Shown here: positions 181 to 9,271 of the stretch, piece after piece
Layout: every line of letters begins with the position of its first letter
Position numbering within the stretch: the stretch's first letter is position 1
Assembly: GCA_002702705.1 (NCBI GenBank)
Contig: PABH01000010.1
Span: 1 to 64,000 of the forward strand
From: Anaerolineaceae bacterium
Lineage (GTDB): Bacteria > Chloroflexota > Anaerolineae > Anaerolineales > Anaerolineaceae
Direction of reading: 5' to 3'
Length of the DNA stretch: 64,000 nt
Notes under the pieces: model-generated
Told to the model about the DNA's origin: nothing
The model's database searches: none
The model's input: the letters and a program-made list of their open reading frames with translations, nothing else
Made by a program: the position numbers and the translations under genes

Positions 181-804
181 ATGAAATCAGCTTATGGTAA
201 ATTATGGGATGCGATCAAAGCGGGATATTTTGAACTCGGATCGCTGGTAATATTAAATCTTTATTGGTTAGTTTTTTCATTAACCCTTGTATTGTTACCC
301 GCTGCAACATCAGCGTTATATTACGCAGTTCGGGAAATGATTGCAGGAGAGGTGGATTACTCGCATAAATTATTTTTTAAGGGTTTAAAAATTTACCTTC
401 TTAAAGGCTGGCGCTGGTTTTTACCCAACTTGCTGCTGATCAGTCTTTTTCTCACCAATATCCTCTTGTTTTGGGTGGAAAATGATACCATCACCGTATT
501 GGTAAAAGCTGGCAACCTGGCCTTTTTACTGCTTTGGTTGTGGTTTCAAACATTTTTACTGCCCCTGATGATGGAACAACAAGAACAAAATGTTCGCCTG
601 GCCCTAAGAAATGCACTGGTTGTCTTTTTAAAAAAACCGGGCATTTACGGGGTTACCAGCTTTTTTACAGCGCTATTTATGGTCATCAGTTTCATTCTCA
701 TGATGCCCTGGATCGTAATTACCATTAGTTTCATTGCTTTTATCCAGGTATCTATGCTGCGAACAGCCCTGGCAGAAATGAAAGAGCAAGAGAATCAAGC
801 CTAA
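181..804 (+). CDS. YesL-like (DUF624) integral membrane protein
   Basis: A 207-residue polytopic membrane protein of the YesL/DUF624 type. Hydrophobic segments lie near residues 20-48, 78-100, 103-130 and 153-190. The pattern LNLYWLVFSL followed by LPAATSALYYAVR is the usual N-terminal signature of the family. Family members often sit beside carbohydrate transport genes and have no established biochemical role; no such neighbour is present here. The ATG at 181 has GAGGA seven bases upstream. The gene converges on the msrP-like gene, and the two stop codons overlap (801-804), so there is no room for a separate terminator. Confidence 0.75.
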   Translation: MKSAYGKLWDAIKAGYFELGSLVILNLYWLVFSLTLVLLPAATSALYYAVREMIAGEVDYSHKLFFKGLKIYLLKGWRWFLPNLLLISLFLTNILLFWVENDTITVLVKAGNLAFLLLWLWFQTFLLPLMMEQQEQNVRLALRNALVVFLKKPGIYGVTSFFTALFMVISFILMMPWIVITISFIAFIQVSMLRTALAEMKEQENQA

Positions 805-1733
805 TAATTTATTCTCAAATCCATTCCTTCATAGAGGTAACCGACTTCGTCCTCATATCCATTAAACATAAGTGTTGGGCGGCGTTTTAATTCCCCGATC
901 CGGCGTTCGCTGTCCTGCATCCAGCGCGGATGCGGCACGTTGGGATTAACATTGGAATAAAAACCATATTCATTTGGTGCAGATGTGTTCCAGAATGTGT
1001 CCGGCTGTTGGGCTACCAGTTCGATTTTTTTAATCGATTTTGCACTCTTAAAGCCATATTTCCACGGTACCACCATTCGGATCGGTGCCCCATTTTGGCC
1101 TGGCATTGGTTTTCCATACAAACCGGTTGCCAGTGTTGCCAAGTCATTCTGGGCTTCGTCTAATCTTAATCCTTCCTGGTACGGCCAGGGAAAGGTAGGT
1201 TTGGAAACATTTGGCATTTGTTTTTCATCCATATCGGATTCAAACCGGACATACTGGGCATCTGCGGTGGGTCCTACCACATCCAATAATTTTGACAGAG
1301 AGAAACCTACCCATGGAATTACCATAGACCAACCTTCCACACACCGCAGACGGTAAATCCGTTCTTCCTGCTCAAAATTATCCAAAATATCCTGCATCGT
1401 AAACGTAGTGGGGTTTTTCACCAACCCGGATACTTCAATTTGCCAGTTATCCGTATTGTAATCGCTGGCTAACTCTGCCACTTTCTCCTTAAATAAGGAG
1501 AATTCATAAAAATTGTTATAGGTAGTGATTGATTCGTAAGGGGTTAATTCCTCCCCATCCGGGCCAATGGCCTGCGTGGTAATCACAGCTTCTTCTTCGG
1601 GCGTGGGTGTCACACCGGGTGCACAGGCTGCCAAAACTGCACCTGCGCCAACCAGGGCAGCACTTCGTAAAAATTGTCTGCGATTTATGTAAAACCATTC
1701 CGGTGTAATTTCATCTTTTTTTAGCGGTATCAT
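801..1733 (-). CDS. msrP: MsrP (YedY) molybdoenzyme, periplasmic-type methionine sulfoxide reductase catalytic subunit
   Basis: A 310-residue sulfite-oxidase-fold molybdoenzyme. In Proteobacteria MsrP reduces methionine sulfoxide in exported proteins. The N-terminus has a twin-arginine signal (RRQFLR, 18-23) that runs into a lipobox ending at Cys37, which suggests a Tat-exported lipoprotein. The core RCVEGWSMVIPW has the molybdenum-ligand cysteine at about residue 131, and NGAPIRMVVPWKYGFK and the C-terminal ending (GMDLRINY) closely follow the Escherichia coli protein. GGAGG precedes the ATG. It lies 14 bases after the thioredoxin lipoprotein gene and ends the leftward operon RR-HK-thioredoxin-msrP. 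No gene for the heme membrane partner MsrQ is nearby, so the electron donor is unclear; the linked thioredoxins are candidates (inference). Confidence 0.92.
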   Translation of the reverse strand: MIPLKKDEITPEWFYINRRQFLRSAALVGAGAVLAACAPGVTPTPEEEAVITTQAIGPDGEELTPYESITTYNNFYEFSLFKEKVAELASDYNTDNWQIEVSGLVKNPTTFTMQDILDNFEQEERIYRLRCVEGWSMVIPWVGFSLSKLLDVVGPTADAQYVRFESDMDEKQMPNVSKPTFPWPYQEGLRLDEAQNDLATLATGLYGKPMPGQNGAPIRMVVPWKYGFKSAKSIKKIELVAQQPDTFWNTSAPNEYGFYSNVNPNVPHPRWMQDSERRIGELKRRPTLMFNGYEDEVGYLYEGMDLRINY

Positions 1734-1747
1734 TTTTTCCTCCGTGG

Positions 1748-2332
1748 TTAATATGATTGTTGTAATAATTCCTGAATAACTTGTTCGGTTTGATCGTAAT
1801 TACCTTCACCAATATGTTGGTAACGAATATGCCCATGTTTATCAATCAAAAACAAGGTTGGCCAATAACGGGTTTCATAGGCTCGCCAGTTTTTACCTTC
1901 ATTATCCTGAGTAACCGCGTAAGGTATATCCAGATCTGCCACAGCCTGTTTTAAATTGTCCAGTTCTTTTTCATAACCAAATTCAGGGTAGTGATTTCCA
2001 ATAACCACCAACCCCTGATCTGCATAATTTTCATGCCAATTCTTTATAAAAGGTATCACATTTTTACAATTGATACAGCCAAATGTCCACATTTCGATCA
2101 AAACAACTTTTCCGCGTAAATCGGACAGGCGTAAGACCTGGTCCGTGTTCAACCACACATCGGTGGATAATTCCGGTGCCTCTCCAAAATTCTGTAAGTG
2201 AGAAAGGTCTGCTTCAACCGGAACATCTGCAGGTGGAATCAGTTCGGGTTGTGTATTAAAATTTCCAGCAGATTCTAGCGCGGTACAACCCACCAACAAA
2301 AGACAGATAGTTAACCATAAAAATTGTTTCAT
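1748..2332 (-). CDS. TlpA-like thioredoxin-fold lipoprotein
   Basis: A 194-residue secreted thioredoxin-fold protein. A signal peptide ends in the lipobox LLVGC (Cys16), and the redox-active motif is CINC at residues 86-89 within VVLIEMWTFGCINC. VITQD-type strands and the FLIDKHGHIRYQHIGEG tail match the AhpC/TSA-Redoxin (TlpA/ResA) family, which passes reducing equivalents to exported proteins. The start is set at 2332 because AAGGAG lies eleven bases upstream; an in-frame start seven codons earlier would place charged residues ahead of the signal peptide. The gene lies between the histidine kinase and msrP on the same strand, so a role in reducing or maturing MsrP or other envelope proteins is plausible but not shown. 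Confidence 0.88.
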   Translation of the reverse strand: MKQFLWLTICLLLVGCTALESAGNFNTQPELIPPADVPVEADLSHLQNFGEAPELSTDVWLNTDQVLRLSDLRGKVVLIEMWTFGCINCKNVIPFIKNWHENYADQGLVVIGNHYPEFGYEKELDNLKQAVADLDIPYAVTQDNEGKNWRAYETRYWPTLFLIDKHGHIRYQHIGEGNYDQTEQVIQELLQQSY

Positions 2333-2407
2333 CGGATTCTTTCTCCTTATCAATTCAAGTATAAAAAAGAATCCTTACGAAAAGATTACGCAGTCCTTGT
2401 CGAATAA

Positions 2408-3661
2408 TTAACAACGCTCACATGGTAAATAAAACAAAAAACAAGCCCCTTCTCCCGGCGCACTTTTAACACTGATCTGGCCGCCATGCGCCTCCACAAT
2501 CCCTTTTGTTATGGCTAAACCAAGCCCAGCACCGCCAGTTTTCCGACTGCGTGATTTTTCCCCCCGGTAAAAACGGTCAAATAAGTGGGGCAAGTCCGCT
2601 GTCTGGATACCCTCACCGGTATCACAAACCGACACCAACACCCGATCATCCTCACGAGCCGCACGTACTGTCACAGAACCACCTGGTGGGGTATGGCGCA
2701 AAGCATTTGCAACCAGGTTATTTAACACCCGTCCGATGCGCTGAATATCCATATCGACGGGATCACAATCCGGATCAGCATAACCTTGCAAATCAATCTG
2801 ATTGGTTTGGGCGGTGTGCCGAAAACTTTCCAGGGTATCCGATATTAAATCTGATACGGAACCCCACTCTCGATCTAAGGGCAAGCCGCCTGCATCCAGT
2901 TGTGCCATTTGGAAAAGATCATCAATCAGAGCGGATAAATTCTTTACATCCCGCTGTGCTGTTTTAAAATAACGTTGAATCGTTTCAGGGTCGTCCGCCA
3001 CACCATCCGCCAGCGCTTCCAGAATGGCCCGCACCGAAGTTAAAGGAGTTTGCAAGTCGTGGCTGACCCAGGCAATCAAGTCGGAACGCTGCTGTTCCAA
3101 TTCCGCTTGTTTTTCAGCTGCCAGGCGCAGTTGAGCTGACATTTGATTAAATGTGTATGCCAGGGAAGCCAATTCATCTTTTCCTTCCACCGCCACTTTT
3201 ACCGAAAGGTCACCGGTCGCGATCTGGTCGGCAGCTTTCTCCAAACGCTGTAATCGGCTGGTAATGGAACCGGATAAAAAATAACCCAATGCCATTGCAA
3301 TACCACCCGCAAAAATCAACAGCACTGTGGCTAATAACAAATCATGCTGACTGGCAAACATCAAACGGGCTGTTAACCATACATTTAAAAAGGTTAACAG
3401 GCTGGATAAAGCAGACCCACCCAGCAAAGCCCAACGGATTGAGGTAACGTGATTAGCCCAACCCGTGCGGTAAAAAAAATAACCGCTGGCAATTGAAACA
3501 ACGGCTGTGATACTTAAAAACAGTCCCATCTGTTGAAAATCAGCAGCCGGGGGGCTCATTAATAGATTAAACAGAGCCAGCGTAATAAAGGTTACAACCA
3601 ACACACCCACAATAAACCGCAGCGATTGTGCGGATTGGGTATGGGAATTTTTTCTAATCAT
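2408..3661 (-). CDS. Membrane sensor histidine kinase (HAMP, HisKA, HATPase)
   Basis: A 417-residue sensor kinase with four hydrophobic segments in the first 130 residues and almost no extracytoplasmic loop, followed by a HAMP segment (about 130-185). HisKA carries the phosphoaccepting His201 (WVSHDLQTPLTS). HATPase_c has the N box NNLVANALRHTPPGG, the G1 box DTGEGI and the G2 box GAGLGLAI. The short loops suggest that it senses the membrane or intramembrane redox state rather than a soluble ligand (inference). GAGGTG precedes the ATG, and the gene begins eight bases after the response regulator gene, its evident partner. The arrangement resembles the HprSR-msrPQ linkage of enterobacteria. 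Confidence 0.93.
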   Translation of the reverse strand: MIRKNSHTQSAQSLRFIVGVLVVTFITLALFNLLMSPPAADFQQMGLFLSITAVVSIASGYFFYRTGWANHVTSIRWALLGGSALSSLLTFLNVWLTARLMFASQHDLLLATVLLIFAGGIAMALGYFLSGSITSRLQRLEKAADQIATGDLSVKVAVEGKDELASLAYTFNQMSAQLRLAAEKQAELEQQRSDLIAWVSHDLQTPLTSVRAILEALADGVADDPETIQRYFKTAQRDVKNLSALIDDLFQMAQLDAGGLPLDREWGSVSDLISDTLESFRHTAQTNQIDLQGYADPDCDPVDMDIQRIGRVLNNLVANALRHTPPGGSVTVRAAREDDRVLVSVCDTGEGIQTADLPHLFDRFYRGEKSRSRKTGGAGLGLAITKGIVEAHGGQISVKSAPGEGACFLFYLPCERC

Positions 3662-3669
3662 ATAACACC

Positions 3670-4359
3670 TCAGGGTTCAAATTTATACCCCACTCCCCAT
3701 ACCGTTAATAAATGACGGGGATTCGAGGGATCAGGTTCAATTTTTTCTCTTAACCGGCGGATATGAACGGTAACCGTGCCGGGATCAATATAATCCGAAA
3801 TGCCCCAAATTCTTTCCAGCAGTTGGTCACGGGAAAAAACCTGACGGGGGTGATTGGCCAGATGCCATAATAGTTCATATTCTTTTGAGGTCAAACTGAT
3901 CTCTTTATCCTGTAAATGCACCAACCGGGTTTGGGGATCAATCCGCAAATCATCAAAATCAAGGGTCTGTTCTTTCTGTGATTCTTCCCCGCGATGGGTA
4001 CGGCGGAACACTGCACGCACTCTGCTGACCAATTCCTGCGGGCTGAACGGTTTGACAACATAATCATCTGCACCCATTTCCAAACCGGCAATCCGGTCTG
4101 CTTCGCTGCGGCGTGCGGTTAACATAATGATCGGCACATCACTGCGGTCTCGCAGCCAACGGGTAATCTCATATCCATCTACATTCGGCACCATCAGGTC
4201 CAGGATAAGTAAATCCGGTAATTGTTGTTTTAACTGTTCCAATGCGGTGCCGCCATCATCAAAAGCCATTACCTGATAACCGGCCCGTTTCAGATAAAGC
4301 GAGACGACCTCCGCAATGCTGGGTTCATCTTCCACAAGCATAATTTTTTGTGTGTTCAT
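3670..4359 (-). CDS. OmpR/PhoB-family response regulator
   Basis: A 229-residue response regulator. The receiver domain has the acidic pair E10/D11, phosphoacceptor D54 (LLILDLMVP), T81 and K103 (VVKPF), all canonical. The C-terminal winged helix contains LTSKEYELLWHLANHP and the ending VHIRRLREKIEPDP, then TVWGVGYKF. The ATG at 4359 is preferred, with GGCGG eight bases upstream; a TTG five codons earlier is possible. It heads a leftward operon with the kinase, the thioredoxin lipoprotein and msrP, and faces the methionine-rich lipoprotein gene across about 230 bases that contain phased half-sites typical of this regulator family. Autoregulation and control of both operons are likely (inference). 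Confidence 0.93.
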   Translation of the reverse strand: MNTQKIMLVEDEPSIAEVVSLYLKRAGYQVMAFDDGGTALEQLKQQLPDLLILDLMVPNVDGYEITRWLRDRSDVPIIMLTARRSEADRIAGLEMGADDYVVKPFSPQELVSRVRAVFRRTHRGEESQKEQTLDFDDLRIDPQTRLVHLQDKEISLTSKEYELLWHLANHPRQVFSRDQLLERIWGISDYIDPGTVTVHIRRLREKIEPDPSNPRHLLTVWGVGYKFEP

Positions 4360-4445
4360 AGGGTTTTCCGCCAATCTGGTAAAAAAATATAATGCTTCCG
4401 ACTCTTAATACGAGCATCTACTGATTAAACTATACCCAAGAGTGC

Positions 4446-4536
4446 TTACATGACCAAAACAAAAAGATTACACATTTCTTACAAAAAGGGTGAGTTTCTT
4501 TCACAAACCTGTAAGATTTTCGCAAACAGTTTGTAA
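4446..4536. promoter_or_regulatory. Candidate operator array: 11-bp-phased TTACA / TGTAA half-sites
   Basis: TTACA occurs at 4446, 4468 and 4479, with a weaker AAACA at 4457, so four half-sites start exactly 11 bases apart. Its reverse complement TGTAA occurs at 4510 and 4532, with a weaker CGCAA at 4521, again 11 bases apart. OmpR/PhoB-type regulators bind direct repeats with one-helical-turn phasing. The array lies between the response regulator gene and the divergent methionine-rich lipoprotein gene. The binding protein is inferred to be the adjacent regulator. Confidence 0.6.
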
Positions 4537-4591
4537 GCCCTTTATGTGATCATTGAATTACAAACCCAATTTCAGAAAGGATATGATCAAA

Positions 4592-5380
4592 ATGAAAATT
4601 CAAAAAGGATTACCCTTTGTATTAATCATCCTCGCCCTTGTTTTGGCAGCCTGTGCGCCAGCAGCACTTCCGGTTACCGGAGAGAAAAACGCAGCAATGC
4701 AGGAAGAAACAGCCATGAAAGATGATGCCATGGCCGATGAATCAATGGCCGAAGACACCATGAACAAAGATGATGCCATGGCAGAAGAATCGATGGCCGA
4801 GGACACGATGATGGAAGAAGATTCTCATGGGGAAAGCATGGACGAGGACAAAAAAGATGACACCATGATGGACGAGGACACTATGTCCGAGGGCACTTCA
4901 GACGATTCGATGGATTCAATGATGGAATCCCCGGCATGGTTCTCACATGAGTTTTTAAATGTGAACACCGGTGAAACCTTCACCATTTCCGATCTAAAGG
5001 GCAAAGTTGTGCTGGTTGAAACCATGGCAACCTGGTGTTCCAATTGTTTACGCCAGCAAAAAGAAGTCAAAGCCCTGCATGATCTGATTGGTGAACGGGA
5101 TGATTTTGTCAGCTTTGGCCTGGATATCGACCTGAATGAAAACGCAGAAGCTTTAAAAAACTACGTGGACCAGCAAGGATTTGACTGGACCTATGCCATT
5201 ACCAGTGACACGGTAGCCCGTGAAATTGGCAATTTATACGGCAGCCAATTTTTGAACCCGCCTTCAACCCCAATGTTAATTATCGATCAAAAAGGTGAAG
5301 TACACCTCTTACCCTTTGGTATCAAATCGGCCGCCGATCTTCAGGAAGCCCTACAGCCTTTCTTAGACGGCTCTATGTAA
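4592..5380 (+). CDS. Methionine/acid-rich lipoprotein fused to a thioredoxin-like domain
   Basis: A 262-residue lipoprotein. The signal peptide ends at lipobox LAAC (Cys21). Residues 36-111 form a low-complexity segment with 16 Met in 76 residues, mostly spaced five or six apart and set among Asp, Glu, Ser and Thr. A TlpA/Redoxin-type thioredoxin domain follows, with motif WCSNC (149-152) and STPMLIIDQKG near the cis-proline. The start at 4592 has AAAGG eleven bases upstream. The gene is followed by ccdA and diverges from the two-component/msrP operon. The met-rich segment may be an oxidant sink repaired by MsrP, as described for MrpX in Azospira, or may bind Cu(I); both are inference. No close named homologue was recognised. 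Confidence 0.85.
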   Translation: MKIQKGLPFVLIILALVLAACAPAALPVTGEKNAAMQEETAMKDDAMADESMAEDTMNKDDAMAEESMAEDTMMEEDSHGESMDEDKKDDTMMDEDTMSEGTSDDSMDSMMESPAWFSHEFLNVNTGETFTISDLKGKVVLVETMATWCSNCLRQQKEVKALHDLIGERDDFVSFGLDIDLNENAEALKNYVDQQGFDWTYAITSDTVAREIGNLYGSQFLNPPSTPMLIIDQKGEVHLLPFGIKSAADLQEALQPFLDGSM

Positions 5381-5406
5381 CAAACGATTAATCCAATTCA
5401 TTCATG

Positions 5407-5432
5407 CCGCCGGAAGTGTATTCTTCCGGCGG
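5407..5432 (+). other. Intercistronic GC-rich hairpin before ccdA
   Basis: A perfect 10-bp stem (CCGCCGGAAG / CTTCCGGCGG) with a 6-base loop, located between the met-rich lipoprotein gene and ccdA. No T-run follows, so it is probably not an intrinsic terminator. It could stabilise the upstream mRNA or set differential expression in the operon. Confidence 0.6.
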
Positions 5433-5450
5433 TACTTTACAGGAAAACTT

Positions 5451-6125
5451 ATGATAGAAAGCATCTTCACTTCACTCTCGCTCGGTTTATTAGCCACTAC
5501 CAATCCTTGTGTTTTGCCGCTTTACCCCGGTTTTTTGGCCTATATCAGCGGCGGCCAGGAAAGTTTGCAAAATTCACGCGGCCGGTATTTTTTGGGATTT
5601 TTTGTTCTGGCAGGTGTGTTAACCATGATGCTGGTGTTAGGCGGCATCATCGCTGCATTGGCGGTTTCCATTGGACGGGCTTTGTCGATCATCATTCCTA
5701 TTGCGGATTTGATGATTTTGACCCTCGGTATTTTTATGTTATTTAATATCAATCCCTTTAAGCAAATTCCTCAAATTAATGTCCCCTTTTTAAAACACCC
5801 CTTCGCAAACGCTTATGTATACGGCCTGTTATACGGACCGATTACCCTGCCCTGTTCCGGCCCATTGATTTTGGGCATCTTTGCCTATTCATTTACCGCC
5901 GGGGAAGTCCTCAGCAAACTGACCGTATTTTTCTGGTTCGGAATCGGCTTTGGCATCCCCCTCCTGATCCTCTCCCTGCTTTCCGGCGCCAGCCAGCGTT
6001 GGATCACCCGTCAATTTGCCAAACGCGCCCGGCTGGTCAATCTGATCGGTGGTGTGTTGTTGGTTGGCGTGGCTTTGTTTGATTTGTATGCCAACCGTGG
6101 TTTAATTTTGGCATTTTTTGGATGA
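5451..6125 (+). CDS. ccdA: CcdA-type thiol/electron transporter membrane protein
   Basis: A 224-residue membrane protein with six hydrophobic segments, of the CcdA/DsbD-beta family. These proteins pass electrons from cytoplasmic thioredoxin across the membrane to extracytoplasmic thioredoxin-fold proteins. Two conserved cysteines lie in the expected helices: TNPCVLPLYPGFLAY and LPCSGPLILG. The usual SPC is TNPC here. AGGAAA precedes the ATG. It follows the methionine-rich thioredoxin lipoprotein gene by 70 bases, so the natural acceptors are that protein and the CINC lipoprotein of the divergent operon (inference). Size and topology are normal for the family. Confidence 0.9.
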   Translation: MIESIFTSLSLGLLATTNPCVLPLYPGFLAYISGGQESLQNSRGRYFLGFFVLAGVLTMMLVLGGIIAALAVSIGRALSIIIPIADLMILTLGIFMLFNINPFKQIPQINVPFLKHPFANAYVYGLLYGPITLPCSGPLILGIFAYSFTAGEVLSKLTVFFWFGIGFGIPLLILSLLSGASQRWITRQFAKRARLVNLIGGVLLVGVALFDLYANRGLILAFFG

Positions 6126-6714
6126 GGGTGAAGAACAAACCTTGGGCTACAATCCTTGCCAGTGGTGCAACGATTGTTTGAACTTTTACGTGCTGATAAT
6201 CGAGCCTTGTTTACCATAATCCCAAGGTTGGGTATCTTCCAAAAGCCAGGGTTTCTTGTGGATCATGGTTGGAAAAGACCCTCCGAACTCGGGTTTTTGT
6301 CGAGGGCCATCTTGGCAAGGAATAAGTCGTTGAAAATCTTCCAGGGCAACGAAAAGCGAAACCAAAGCCCGAGTTCTGCTCTGTCCGCAAGGTAAAAAAG
6401 CAGAACTGTGACCTAGGTTTGCGCGTTTGCTGAAGCCATGTTTTGCTAAGAGTCATGATTGAAAAAACGCCTCCGAACTCGGGTTTTTGTCGAGGGCCAT
6501 CTTGGCAAGGAATAAATCATTGAAAATTTTCCAGGGCAACGAAAAGCGAAAACGAAGCCCGAGTTCTGCTCTGTCCGTAAGGTAAAAAAGCAGAACTGTG
6601 ACCTGGGATGCGTGTTTGCTGAAGCCGGGATTGTAGTTAACTAGGAATATATTAGGAGACGATAGATTGGTAACCCTACCGTTGGTAATGCAAGGATCAA
6701 GCCCGGGTTCTGCT
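6126..6714. other. Gene-free region rich in repeats and inverted repeats
   Basis: A 589-base gap without a credible gene. It contains the two ~175-base tandem copies described separately. Before them, a 9-bp inverted pair (AACCTTGGG 6138-6146, CCCAAGGTT 6221-6229) encloses 74 bases. Short open frames on both strands here follow the repeat and have no recognisable product. Confidence 0.6.
6262..6626. repeat. Tandem ~190-bp non-coding repeat with internal stem potential
   Basis: Copy 1 (about 6262-6437) and copy 2 (about 6452-6626) match with few substitutions at a period of 189-190 bases. A third fragment of 18 bases (6699-6716) repeats the AAGCCC[A/G]..TTCTGCTCT part and overlaps the stop codon of the next leftward gene. 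Within each copy GAACTCGGGTTT (6285-6296 in copy 1) can pair with AAGCCCGAGTTC (6365-6376), and GTTCTGCT (6373-6380) with AGCAGAAC (6399-6406); the two pairings compete for the same bases. The substitutions spare these arms. It may be a structured RNA or a small repeat family; its identity is unknown. Confidence 0.75.
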
Positions 6715-7941
6715 CTATAAAGCGGTTTGGGTCTGCCTTCGCAACTTTTGATTAATACGAATCAAGATGATTAGATTGATCACCGAGAGGGCAAACAAAA
6801 CAAACGGCCCAACCTGGCTGAGAAAAAATGGAAAATTACCCACAGACTCAGGGTCCGGTAAAACCGGGATAATGCCGGATAACAAAGCGAACAGATTCCA
6901 GGTACCGTGTATCAAGACAGCTAACACGTAATTACCCAGGGCACGCCCCCAATTTTTATCATAAAACAGGCTTGCCAATCCCCAACCAACCAAACCGGAC
7001 AAGGTGATATGTAATAAACCCGTGCCGGTGCGCCCCAAAAGCAGGGTGAACCATTCTAAGTCGGTTGGGACTCCGATGGATCCGGCGGTTTCTAATAAGG
7101 CAAAACAGGCACCGGCAATCAGGCCGCCCACAAAACCCTGGGAAGGTGTTAGTTTTTTGCCAGCCAGGAACCACAAAGCCATGGGCTTAAATAATTCTTC
7201 CATCAAAGGAATAAAGAGCGAAATCACCAATAAAGCACTGTTCAGAACCCAGGGATTTTGAAGAAAATCAAACACCATGGTTTCTATTTCAACCGGGTCA
7301 ATCAGCCCTTCTGTCAATTGTTCCTGCAAAATCATTAGCTGGTTCAGTAATTCCGGATTACTGCTGACCCACAATCCAACAAAGACCAGGATCGCCACAA
7401 CAAATACCAACTCCAAAAAGATAATAAACGGCATGGTGATGGAAAAATTAAAAGTGATATTTCCCCAGGTACGGAAAGGACTGCCGGTTGATAATTTTTG
7501 AGAGCCAATCCAAACAAACAACAAAATCGGGATTAAGACCAGTAAAAAGATAAAGGGAGAACTAACCAGGCCAAACCAAGAAACCTGGCTGCTGATAATA
7601 GCTAAAATAATAGAAAGAAAAAATAAAATGGCTGCAATAATAAAAAAGGGTGTTTTCCACGTTTTTGGAAATTTTGGTACAGGTTTGTGCATAAAGCGAA
7701 AAACAGCAATCAGCAGGCTATACGCAAAAACCAGTATCAATAAGATCGTAATCCAAAAATAAATCAGGATTGGTGCATTTTGGGCTGCCAAATCCAAACC
7801 GCCAAAAAAACCCATCAACCCGCTGATCAGAAGGAAGAGTGCGGTCGGTAAAGCGGATAATAAACCCAGGCCGCTTAACACAGCCTGGGTAATTGTATAC
7901 ACTTTGGTTCTCGTGGATAAATCAGATTTTGTTTCGATCAT
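6715..7941 (-). CDS. PrsW-like intramembrane metalloprotease family protein
   Basis: A 408-residue polytopic membrane protein with about nine hydrophobic segments. The C-terminal half has the PrsW/CPBP-type signature: the paired glutamates in PLMEELFKPMALW, then ACFALLETAG, and histidine motifs LLHITLSGLVGW and LIHGTWNLFALL. PrsW proteases cleave membrane-bound anti-sigma factors; no sigma/anti-sigma pair is adjacent, so the substrate is unknown. The start codon overlaps the stop of the DsbA-cyclophilin gene (ATGA, 7938-7941), indicating translational coupling. The final codons overlap a repeat fragment at 6699-6716. Confidence 0.82.
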   Translation of the reverse strand: MIETKSDLSTRTKVYTITQAVLSGLGLLSALPTALFLLISGLMGFFGGLDLAAQNAPILIYFWITILLILVFAYSLLIAVFRFMHKPVPKFPKTWKTPFFIIAAILFFLSIILAIISSQVSWFGLVSSPFIFLLVLIPILLFVWIGSQKLSTGSPFRTWGNITFNFSITMPFIIFLELVFVVAILVFVGLWVSSNPELLNQLMILQEQLTEGLIDPVEIETMVFDFLQNPWVLNSALLVISLFIPLMEELFKPMALWFLAGKKLTPSQGFVGGLIAGACFALLETAGSIGVPTDLEWFTLLLGRTGTGLLHITLSGLVGWGLASLFYDKNWGRALGNYVLAVLIHGTWNLFALLSGIIPVLPDPESVGNFPFFLSQVGPFVLFALSVINLIILIRINQKLRRQTQTAL

Positions 7942-9239
7942 TTTTCCGTAATCTGAACATCCAAGATTAAATCACTATCCGCCAGTTTACCGCCTTGCTG
8001 CGGATCAACCGGATTGAGCGCGTTGACAACATCCATACCTTCGATGACCTTGCCAAATACGGTGTAACCACCGTCCAGCGTAGGCTGTGCAGCATAGGTG
8101 ATGAAGAACTGGCTGCCGTTGGTATCCACACCAGCGTTAGCCATACCCAAAACACCTTCCGCATCAAAGGTCAATTCGGAAATTTCATTGGAGAATTCAT
8201 AACCAGGGCCGCCAAAACCGGAACCACTCGGATCACCCGCTTGAGCAACAAAACCGGGCATAACGCGGTGCCAGGCTACGTTATCAAAATAACCATCTCG
8301 GGCCAAAAACACAAAGCTGTTAACGGTCATCGGGGCTTCTTTGGCAAATAATTCAACAACGACATCACCCTTCGTGGTGGTGATGGTGGCTGTGTAAGTC
8401 TTATCAGGATCAATCGTCATCGGAGGACATTCGCTGTAGCGATTTTTATCGAGATCGATCAACCGTAAAATTCCGGACAAACCTTCGTAATCACGGGGGC
8501 CCATGTAAGGAATACCATTGATAGTAATAAATACCGAGGGAGTGCCGGTCAAACCGATATTTTCGGTGACGTTTTTATAATCAGCATCCAGTTTGGCCTG
8601 GGTTTCAGCACTGGTGTAAACTTCATCAAATTTTTCCATATCCAAACCGAGGGACTCAGCCTGGTCACGCAGCCATGTGTCAAATTGTTCCAACGACATG
8701 GTTTCAGCACTCCACTCAGCCTGATTTTCAAAGAGAAGATCATGCATTTCGAAGAATTTACCCTGAGCGCCAGCTGCTTCAGCGGCACGTGCGGCGGGCA
8801 TGGCTTTAGGATGAATACTGATCAAGGGGAAGTGACGAAAAACCAAATTCACCTTGTCAGGATTATCCGCCTGGAAACGTTCTAATTCCGGGGCTGCCAG
8901 GGAACAGTATGGACATTGAAAATCGCTGTAATTGATCACTTGAACTTCAGCGTTCACATCACCCAATACCCAATCATCCTCGCTGGCCAGGGGAACGGGG
9001 GGAATCTGGTCGGCCGGAATTTCCGGGATAAGACTGCCCACTACGGTACACGTTGCCGGACCGCTGGAAATGGGCTGGCTGGGGCCTGCTGGTTGTTCAA
9101 CTTCCGGGCTGTCTACAGCTTCGGTAACAACCGGCTCTTCAACAGCAGTCGGTTCAGTTTTATTGTTTTGTGCCTGGCAGCCAACCAATAATAAACTGGC
9201 TATCAAGATCACAAAGATCATTATTCGCATTTTTCGCAT
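7938..9239 (-). CDS. Lipoprotein with DsbA-like thioredoxin domain fused to cyclophilin PPIase
   Basis: A 433-residue lipoprotein (lipobox LLVGC, Cys21) with an acidic/Pro linker (about 22-88). A DsbA/thioredoxin_4 domain (about 90-255) has CPYC at 109-112 in the context NYSDFQCPYC and GTPSVFITINGIPY. A cyclophilin-type peptidyl-prolyl isomerase domain (about 275-433) has WHRVMPGFVAQAGDP, GMANAGVDTNGSQFFI and LDGGYTVFGKV, so its catalytic arginine and Gln/Phe residues are present. It is predicted to catalyse disulfide exchange and proline isomerisation in exported proteins. The ATG at 9239 has AGG nine bases upstream; a TTG seven codons earlier is less likely. It is coupled to the PrsW-like gene. 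The fusion is unusual; each domain is common alone. Confidence 0.93.
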   Translation of the reverse strand: MRKMRIMIFVILIASLLLVGCQAQNNKTEPTAVEEPVVTEAVDSPEVEQPAGPSQPISSGPATCTVVGSLIPEIPADQIPPVPLASEDDWVLGDVNAEVQVINYSDFQCPYCSLAAPELERFQADNPDKVNLVFRHFPLISIHPKAMPAARAAEAAGAQGKFFEMHDLLFENQAEWSAETMSLEQFDTWLRDQAESLGLDMEKFDEVYTSAETQAKLDADYKNVTENIGLTGTPSVFITINGIPYMGPRDYEGLSGILRLIDLDKNRYSECPPMTIDPDKTYTATITTTKGDVVVELFAKEAPMTVNSFVFLARDGYFDNVAWHRVMPGFVAQAGDPSGSGFGGPGYEFSNEISELTFDAEGVLGMANAGVDTNGSQFFITYAAQPTLDGGYTVFGKVIEGMDVVNALNPVDPQQGGKLADSDLILDVQITEK

Positions 9240-9271
9240 TAAGTTTTTCCTACCTTTCAATTATCAAAACC

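Follow-up and report, generated by a model that had tools for sequence, protein, structure and literature searches.

The window analysed here is a stretch of 64,000 bases at the start of a contig (G000:C12:1-64000, contig PABH01000010.1) in the 5.9 Mb genome of an Anaerolineaceae bacterium; G, C and L numbers denote genomes, contigs and loci. Near its left end MsrP, the thioredoxin lipoprotein Tlp2, a histidine kinase and a response regulator are encoded leftward, and a second thioredoxin lipoprotein, MetTrx, and CcdA are encoded rightward. We hold with moderate confidence that this locus is a single regulated surface-repair regulon in which MsrP and MsrQ restore methionine, including the methionine of a sacrificial tail on MetTrx, and CcdA keeps both thioredoxins reduced. 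The six genes had been described in an earlier note on this DNA, and all were recovered at their positions; its picture of an extracytoplasmic methionine-repair locus with a two-component system was also supported. Selenocysteine forms of Tlp2 and a regulator box are features beyond that note.

Relatives of the locus were collected by a scan of one genome per species. This gave 281 confirmed Tlp2 relatives, and the best 80 were kept as the named loci. All of these best 80 are Chloroflexota in the tree listing, and the contigs of the relatives are mostly from metagenome-assembled genomes. Named and unnamed loci overlap (e.g. L176/L098 and L197/L100), so the two sets are not additive. MsrP adjoins Tlp2 in 54 of the 80 named loci. 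The kinase and regulator lie upstream of Tlp2 in 44 of the 68 named loci with at least 2,600 bases upstream, and 37 of these 44 also have MsrP. Where MsrP and the two-component system occur together and at least 4,200 bases upstream are available, MetTrx is present in 22 of 34 loci. MetTrx was found in none of the 26 named loci without MsrP, 19 of which have at least 4,200 bases upstream. Complete seven-gene loci number 22 among the 80, and the co-occurrence across Chloroflexota that the earlier note had proposed as a check is thus present. The locus-calling rules undercount slightly, as L164 is rearranged and L195 and L225 lose the kinase to a long alternative Tlp2 frame. The arrangement MsrQ-MsrP-Tlp2-kinase-regulator facing MetTrx-CcdA was also found in seven other genomes of the window's order (L095, L096, L097, L098, L100, L101 and L105, the last with a decayed Tlp2).

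MsrP reduces methionine sulfoxide (MetO) with electrons that come from MsrQ. The window msrP (801..1733, minus strand) encodes a molybdopterin MetO reductase subunit (PF00174) scoring 433.6 bits against the NF003767 cut-off of 207. It carries a twin-arginine (TAT) export signal (TAT_signal 22.8 bits, cut-off 22.7) followed by a lipobox. Of 54 named relatives, 52 have twin arginines and a lipobox among their first 100 residues, and the frames of the other two are extended far upstream. The RCVE motif, whose Cys is presumably the molybdenum ligand, is present in the window protein, and all 55 MsrP compared have it. The contig ends 800 bases beyond msrP, where an opposite-strand DUF624 gene lies. 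The earlier note had regarded MsrQ as missing; the gap exists only at this contig end, and the search it proposed elsewhere in the genome located msrQ at G000:C9. The ferric-reductase-like protein encoded there scores 182.9 bits against the MsrQ cut-off of 130, and its gene neighbours seem by eye to be unrelated. MsrQ follows MsrP in all 49 named relatives with at least 2,600 bases downstream. Behind msrQ, 28 of the 46 loci with sufficient sequence have a DsbA-like gene whose product is apparently membrane-anchored. It stands 0.3-1 kb past msrQ in L166, L176, L185, L240 and others, and a nucleoside-kinase-like gene was seen by eye beyond it in four closely read loci.

The sample of the window's order comprised 201 genomes, with MsrP above cut-off in 124 and MsrQ above cut-off in 106. 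According to the match tables, 14 of the 124 MsrP-positive genomes show no MsrQ match. Seven of these belong to the window's family (G081, G097, G105, G127, G134, G155 and G168) and the remainder are G067, G092, G142, G164, G181, G182 and G196. No MetTrx orthologue was found in these 14, the matches being no stronger than E 1e-8 compared to 1e-45 or better for orthologues. Tlp2 gave only distant matches, in G092, G164 and G182 (E about 1e-39). Because MsrP without MsrQ is not accompanied by a MetTrx orthologue in these genomes, the CcdA module is not a substitute for MsrQ. A single MsrA match was found in the window's genome, with no export signal by eye, and there was no match to MsrB. As a result MsrP may be the only surface MetO reductase of this genome, the search having covered the MsrA and MsrB kinds.

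MetTrx (4583..5380, plus strand; start ATG 4583 or 4592) comprises a signal with the lipobox LAAC, a Met-rich acidic linker and a TlpA/ResA-like thioredoxin domain (Redoxin/AhpC-TSA). The linker (4652..4930) has 93 residues, of which 16 are Met and 32 Asp or Glu, and the active site CSNC lies at 5036..5047. The proposal that a Met-rich segment and a thioredoxin are joined in one polypeptide was supported. AlphaFold2 (AF2) gave low confidence for the linker (block means 45-52 for residues 31-110) and predicted the thioredoxin fold well (81-98). No MXKDX repeat was seen by eye in the acidic tail of the window MetTrx. The Met-rich stretch stands out in its surroundings. As controls, 215 further lipoprotein-like N-termini were taken from the fetched loci by a simple pattern, some spurious frames and Tlp2 copies among them, and 213 had no more than 4 Met over up to 70 residues. 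All 25 named MetTrx, every one at an msrP locus, have a Met-rich linker. In 24 of them the linker holds 5-21 Met, or 9-25% of its residues, the boundary in L185 being drawn too long; L198 is also Met-rich. The tails of relatives vary in sequence and keep their composition.

Within the order the MetTrx linked to MsrP and a two-component system are Met-rich in 8 of 8 cases, window included (8-18 Met). Among 12 other order MetTrx three are Met-rich (L093 with 16, L094 and L102 with 10 each) and nine have 0-4 Met. Fisher's test of a Met-rich tail against this linkage gave 8/8 compared to 3/10 and p 0.004 without L104 and L109, whose lipoboxes escaped the pattern used; this p is not a true probability, since the loci compared are related to one another and some lie on short contigs (L106, L094, L107). 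Adding L104 (4 Met) and L109 (0 Met) gives 8/8 compared to 3/12. An extracytoplasmic Met-rich segment is genetically linked to MsrP here, as in MrpX-type systems, and the tail is probably a sacrificial oxidant sink. Two other Met-rich lipoproteins were observed. L193:2829-3455 encodes one with a DM13 domain (PF10517) in an MsrPQ locus with a two-component system and no MetTrx, beside frames that by eye are ApbE-like and ferric-reductase-like. The other, at L111:8095-8820, is a thioredoxin lipoprotein distinct from those above; its acidic tail is rich in Met (repeated DDEMMEDDEAMM), and a distant homologue of Tlp2 is encoded nearby.

Proteins of the CcdA family transfer electrons from thiols outward across the membrane. 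The window ccdA (5451..6125, plus strand; PF02683 47.1 bits) follows metTrx and encodes a presumed carrier of this kind. In 25 CcdA compared, window included, the second Cys motif, of PCSGP type, is present in all and the first in 21. From the observed gene pairing and CxxC motifs, and from the families concerned, we infer that CcdA serves both MetTrx and Tlp2.

Tlp2 (tlp2, 1748..2353, minus strand; PF00578) is a lipoprotein with the lipobox LVGC, and a start at the ATG at 2332 is more likely than one at the 2353 end. No NCBIfam model scored above cut-off for the window protein. The best match of the family profile was DipZ of M. tuberculosis (2hyx, E 4.4e-51), and the structure match to 5cyy had Z 24.0 and a root-mean-square deviation of 1.2 over 150 aligned residues. 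Plant SOQ1 and human NHLRC2 came next, with ResA and Etrx2 lower down. Mean pLDDT of the AF2 model was 88.2. By sequence and fold match Tlp2 is a DipZ-type thioredoxin. Its active site CINC lies at 2066..2077 on the minus strand, with TGT as first Cys codon.

In several relatives an in-frame TGA breaks Tlp2 at precisely the position of the first CxxC Cys (WTFG-TGA-INC). An alignment of 28 members, window included, has TGA in 19 and Cys in 9, and over the 80 named Tlp2 the first active-site codon is TGA in 45, TGC in 23 and TGT in 12. A hairpin of 8 pairs starts 18 bases past the TGA, with a loop that is mostly GUU (39/45). Pairing is complete in 37 of the 45 genes with TGA and in 2 of the 35 with Cys. 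Counted by cell, 96% are paired in TGA genes compared to 55% in Cys genes, and slid partners give 47-63%. TA and CG are exchanged at two of the pairs. The hairpin is not present in L186 and L214. Judged by the features of bacterial selenocysteine insertion sequences (SECIS), the post-TGA hairpin fits a bacterial SECIS. Tlp2 thus appears to use selenocysteine at the presumed attacking position in many relatives, for which the sequence evidence is strong. Assembly error or pseudogene formation was ruled out for the family by the recurrence of one codon in 45 loci and by the covarying hairpin. Decay does apply to G152/L105, in which a Tlp2 remnant lies between the kinase and msrP genes (L105:1900-2320). 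Its frame is broken at several points and the rest of the locus is kept; this is Tlp2 loss in progress.

The window Tlp2 is a Cys form and its predicted fold does not contain the hairpin. Its genome has tRNA-Sec (72.4 bits, gathering score 47) and SelB (377.2 bits). A paralogue at G000:C30 (L244, about 3202-5070, minus strand) was also observed, an NHL-repeat-type thioredoxin with WTYC-TGA-INC and a hairpin after the TGA, which is likely a selenoprotein. tRNA-Sec was above gathering score in 15 of 20 genomes scanned, weak matches appearing in every genome, and in all five scanned genomes with UGA-bearing Tlp2 (G031, G135, G172, G179 and G183). SelB was above cut-off in 149 of the 201 order genomes, including the window's genome and most others that host a Cys-type Tlp2. 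Two hosts of active-site UGA have weak SelB, G019 (E 8.8e-58, completeness 90) and G172 (E 6.9e-17, completeness 70). G036 and G159 each have one flagged TGA, its position unconfirmed, and best SelB E values of 2.1e-30 and 5.1e-26, respectively. Among the 201 order genomes no pattern was found in which the Sec/Cys state tracks the host's selenocysteine machinery. At least 14 Sec/Cys changes were counted on the tree, which is weakly supported; no direction of change is claimed because stars mark only 9 of the 78 inner branches. Members of the 28-sequence alignment match nine NCBIfam families. The sole one with a selenoprotein motif is NF041054 (WAxxUGC), matched by 6 of 28 with a best E of 3.6e-05. 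UGA-bearing Tlp2 genes are probably split or missed in annotations because standard gene callers stop at UGA.

The sensor histidine kinase (2408..3661, minus strand; HATPase_c, HisKA, HAMP) has four apparent membrane segments by eye, two short outer loops and no large outer domain. Conserved loop positions among 47 kinases were Met35 (45), Pro37 (46), Met45 (38) and Met101, Phe102, His106 and Asp107 (46 each). The response regulator (3670..4374, minus strand; Response_reg, Trans_reg_C) is of OmpR/PhoB type. It scores 167.7 bits against the HprR model NF008567, with a cut-off of 353, and membership in HprSR was not supported. An 11-bp direct repeat, GTAATCTTTTCGTAA in minus-strand reading, lies before tlp2-msrP (2375..2389) and is a putative regulator box. 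The same direct-repeat pattern occurs as TTACACATTTCTTAC in the divergent control region (4468..4482, minus strand). From 51 regions upstream of tlp2, 7 of odd length were excluded, and GTAA-N7-GTAA was present in 29 of the remaining 44. Shuffles gave a mean of 0.29, coding windows 1/968 and other spacings 0 or 1. A weaker profile scan, built from the 29, was used for the divergent regions because the strict repeat occurs in only 3 of 25. Against mononucleotide shuffles 21 of 25 divergent regions exceeded the 95% score and 12 of 25 the 99% score. The best profile site of the window's divergent region overlaps the 4468 repeat. The 64-kb window contains the exact repeat six times, two of them at these control regions. 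Related direct-repeat boxes thus precede both operons as putative binding sites of the regulator.

In the surface-repair regulon that we favour the kinase and regulator would sense envelope stress, most likely reactive chlorine or oxygen, and would then activate both operons through the 11-bp direct repeats. MsrP, supplied by the MsrQ encoded elsewhere in the genome, would reduce MetO on surface proteins, among them the Met-rich tail of MetTrx, which would serve as an oxidant sink that MsrP renews. CcdA would carry electrons of cytosolic thioredoxin to MetTrx and Tlp2, and these would reduce oxidized cysteines or peroxides as a branch beyond MsrP. Several observations weigh against this proposal. 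MsrP needs no thiols, and hence the clients of both thioredoxins are not evident; nor is there an evident client of the pneumococcus type, since MsrA is unexported and MsrB unmatched. The window msrQ lies outside the operon. The gene set is not rigid, as MsrP is absent beside Tlp2 in 7 of the 44 loci with the two-component system and 12 of the 34 loci with MsrP and the two-component system show no MetTrx. The MetTrx beside MsrPQ in L036, a locus with no two-component system, has one Met, and the Met-rich MetTrx of L093, L094 and L102 have no MsrP nearby. The scarcity of the exact repeat in divergent regions counts here as well, and the conserved Met, His and Asp of the kinase outer loops would also suit copper.

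A copper response is accordingly one alternative, in which the kinase would sense Cu(I) through its loop Met and His, the tail would bind copper and MsrP would keep the Met residues reduced, comparable to CusSR, MsrPQ and CusF. The conserved loop motif M-F-x-S-x-H-D (46 of 47 kinases have M101, F102, H106 and D107, and one is gapped) and the M-x-PP motifs agree with this, and E. coli MsrPQ is described in the available text of PMC9302797 as copper-induced via CusSR and as repairing CusF. However, the tail is rich in Asp and Glu with few His, and by eye no metal motif is constant between relatives. Kinase and regulator score below the heavy-metal CopRS-type cut-offs (165.4/292.55 and 182.7/279.2 bits), values that are still compatible with copper. 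The operon neighbours DUF624 and PrsW, considered in the window, are not copper genes. We regard the copper response as rather unlikely. General thiol-redox or disulfide quality control is a further reading, and we give it little credence. Tlp2, MetTrx and CcdA would here mature surface proteins or cytochromes, with MsrP a passenger and the tail a spacer. MetTrx-CcdA pairs with Met-free tails and no MsrP in the fetched flanks do exist (L103, L108, L110, and L106 on a 3-kb contig), Tlp2 is DipZ-type and lacks MsrP in 26 of 80 named loci, and the DsbA-like gene behind msrQ would also fit. Against it stand the lack of MetTrx in all 26 MsrP-less named Tlp2 loci, 19 of them with ample sequence upstream, the Met-rich tail in 25 of 25 named MetTrx and the related boxes before both operons.

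The earlier note had itself suggested that CcdA and the thioredoxins feed MsrP instead of MsrQ, with CcdA possibly replacing MsrQ, and had named co-conservation of msrQ with msrP as an observation that would tell against this. The position of the window msrQ outside the operon speaks for the suggestion. It was ruled out as a stand-in for MsrQ by the msrQ at G000:C9, by the 49/49 linkage in relatives, which is that very co-conservation, and by the 14 MsrQ-negative genomes without a MetTrx orthologue. It is largely refuted and in our view highly improbable. A variant of the favoured regulon with two electron supplies is a doubtful possibility. Quinones would supply MsrP through MsrQ for methionine. 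CcdA would serve the thiol or selenenyl side through a selenol Tlp2, and this branch might reduce MsrP itself or, in cis, the oxidized tail. If true, MsrP would have a thiol or selenol partner, unlike any MsrPQ system found described.

Two other features of the window were observed. Past ccdA, a stretch of about 150 bases is present in two direct copies at 6270-6620, with no evident gene by eye. At 7938-9260 a DsbA-type thioredoxin domain and a cyclophilin domain are encoded in one lipoprotein-like frame.

The locus was compared with known systems. Tlp2 resembles the thioredoxin module of mycobacterial DipZ in fold and sequence. In DipZ this module is joined to a CcdA-like membrane portion, whereas Tlp2 is a separate lipoprotein. 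As described in the available text of PMC9302797, MsrPQ of E. coli is likewise under two-component control, by HprSR and CusSR. The present locus differs in that its kinase lacks a large outer domain, its putative boxes are direct repeats in place of the inverted HprR/CusR box, and it has additional genes. Prx-like thiol:disulfide oxidoreductases (PF00578, UxxC) form a broad class with selenocysteine at the first CxxC position, according to the accessible part of a 2026 review (PMC13188914), in which "Chloroflex" does not occur. Neither "Chloroflex" nor "thioredoxin" occurs in the accessible part of the deep-Sep paper PMC12013277. Neither a selenothioredoxin with MsrPQ nor a setting of such selenoproteins beside MsrPQ, a two-component system and MetTrx turned up in the open literature, subscription journals lying largely outside the search.

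The nearest known systems are Brucella bcrXQP and the pneumococcal Etrx/CcdA/MsrAB2 system, each taken here from the accessible text of its source. Brucella bcrXQP encodes a HOCl-induced Met-rich peptide together with MsrPQ (PMC8315932). Like MetTrx, MrpX of Azospira and BcrX of Brucella are Met-rich extracytoplasmic polypeptides encoded with MsrPQ and read as HOCl sinks repaired by MsrP. They are separate peptides with MXKDX repeats, under an extracytoplasmic function (ECF) sigma factor in Brucella (PMC8315932), whereas here an acidic tail is carried on a thioredoxin lipoprotein and the locus has a two-component system, two thioredoxins and CcdA. In pneumococcus CcdA and the Etrx lipoproteins serve surface MetO repair (PMC3914529). 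Etrx1/Etrx2-CcdA1/CcdA2-MsrAB2 resembles the present locus in combining CcdA and a pair of surface lipoproteins of thioredoxin fold for MetO repair outside the cytoplasm, arranged in two operons, and in structure Etrx2 is close to Tlp2 (Z 18.2). Its repair enzyme is the thiol-based, Etrx-fed MsrAB (PMC3914529), whereas here the enzyme is a molybdenum-type MsrP with MsrQ, the locus has a single CcdA, one thioredoxin bears a Met-rich tail, and selenocysteine forms occur. One regulated cluster would thus unite two separately known designs, the Met-rich sink with MsrPQ and the CcdA-fed surface thioredoxin lipoproteins. Selenocysteine is thereby placed in a methionine-repair cluster of a poorly studied bacterial group, and the repeated exchange of Sec and Cys at one catalytic position provides natural pairs for probing the benefit of selenium under oxidative stress.

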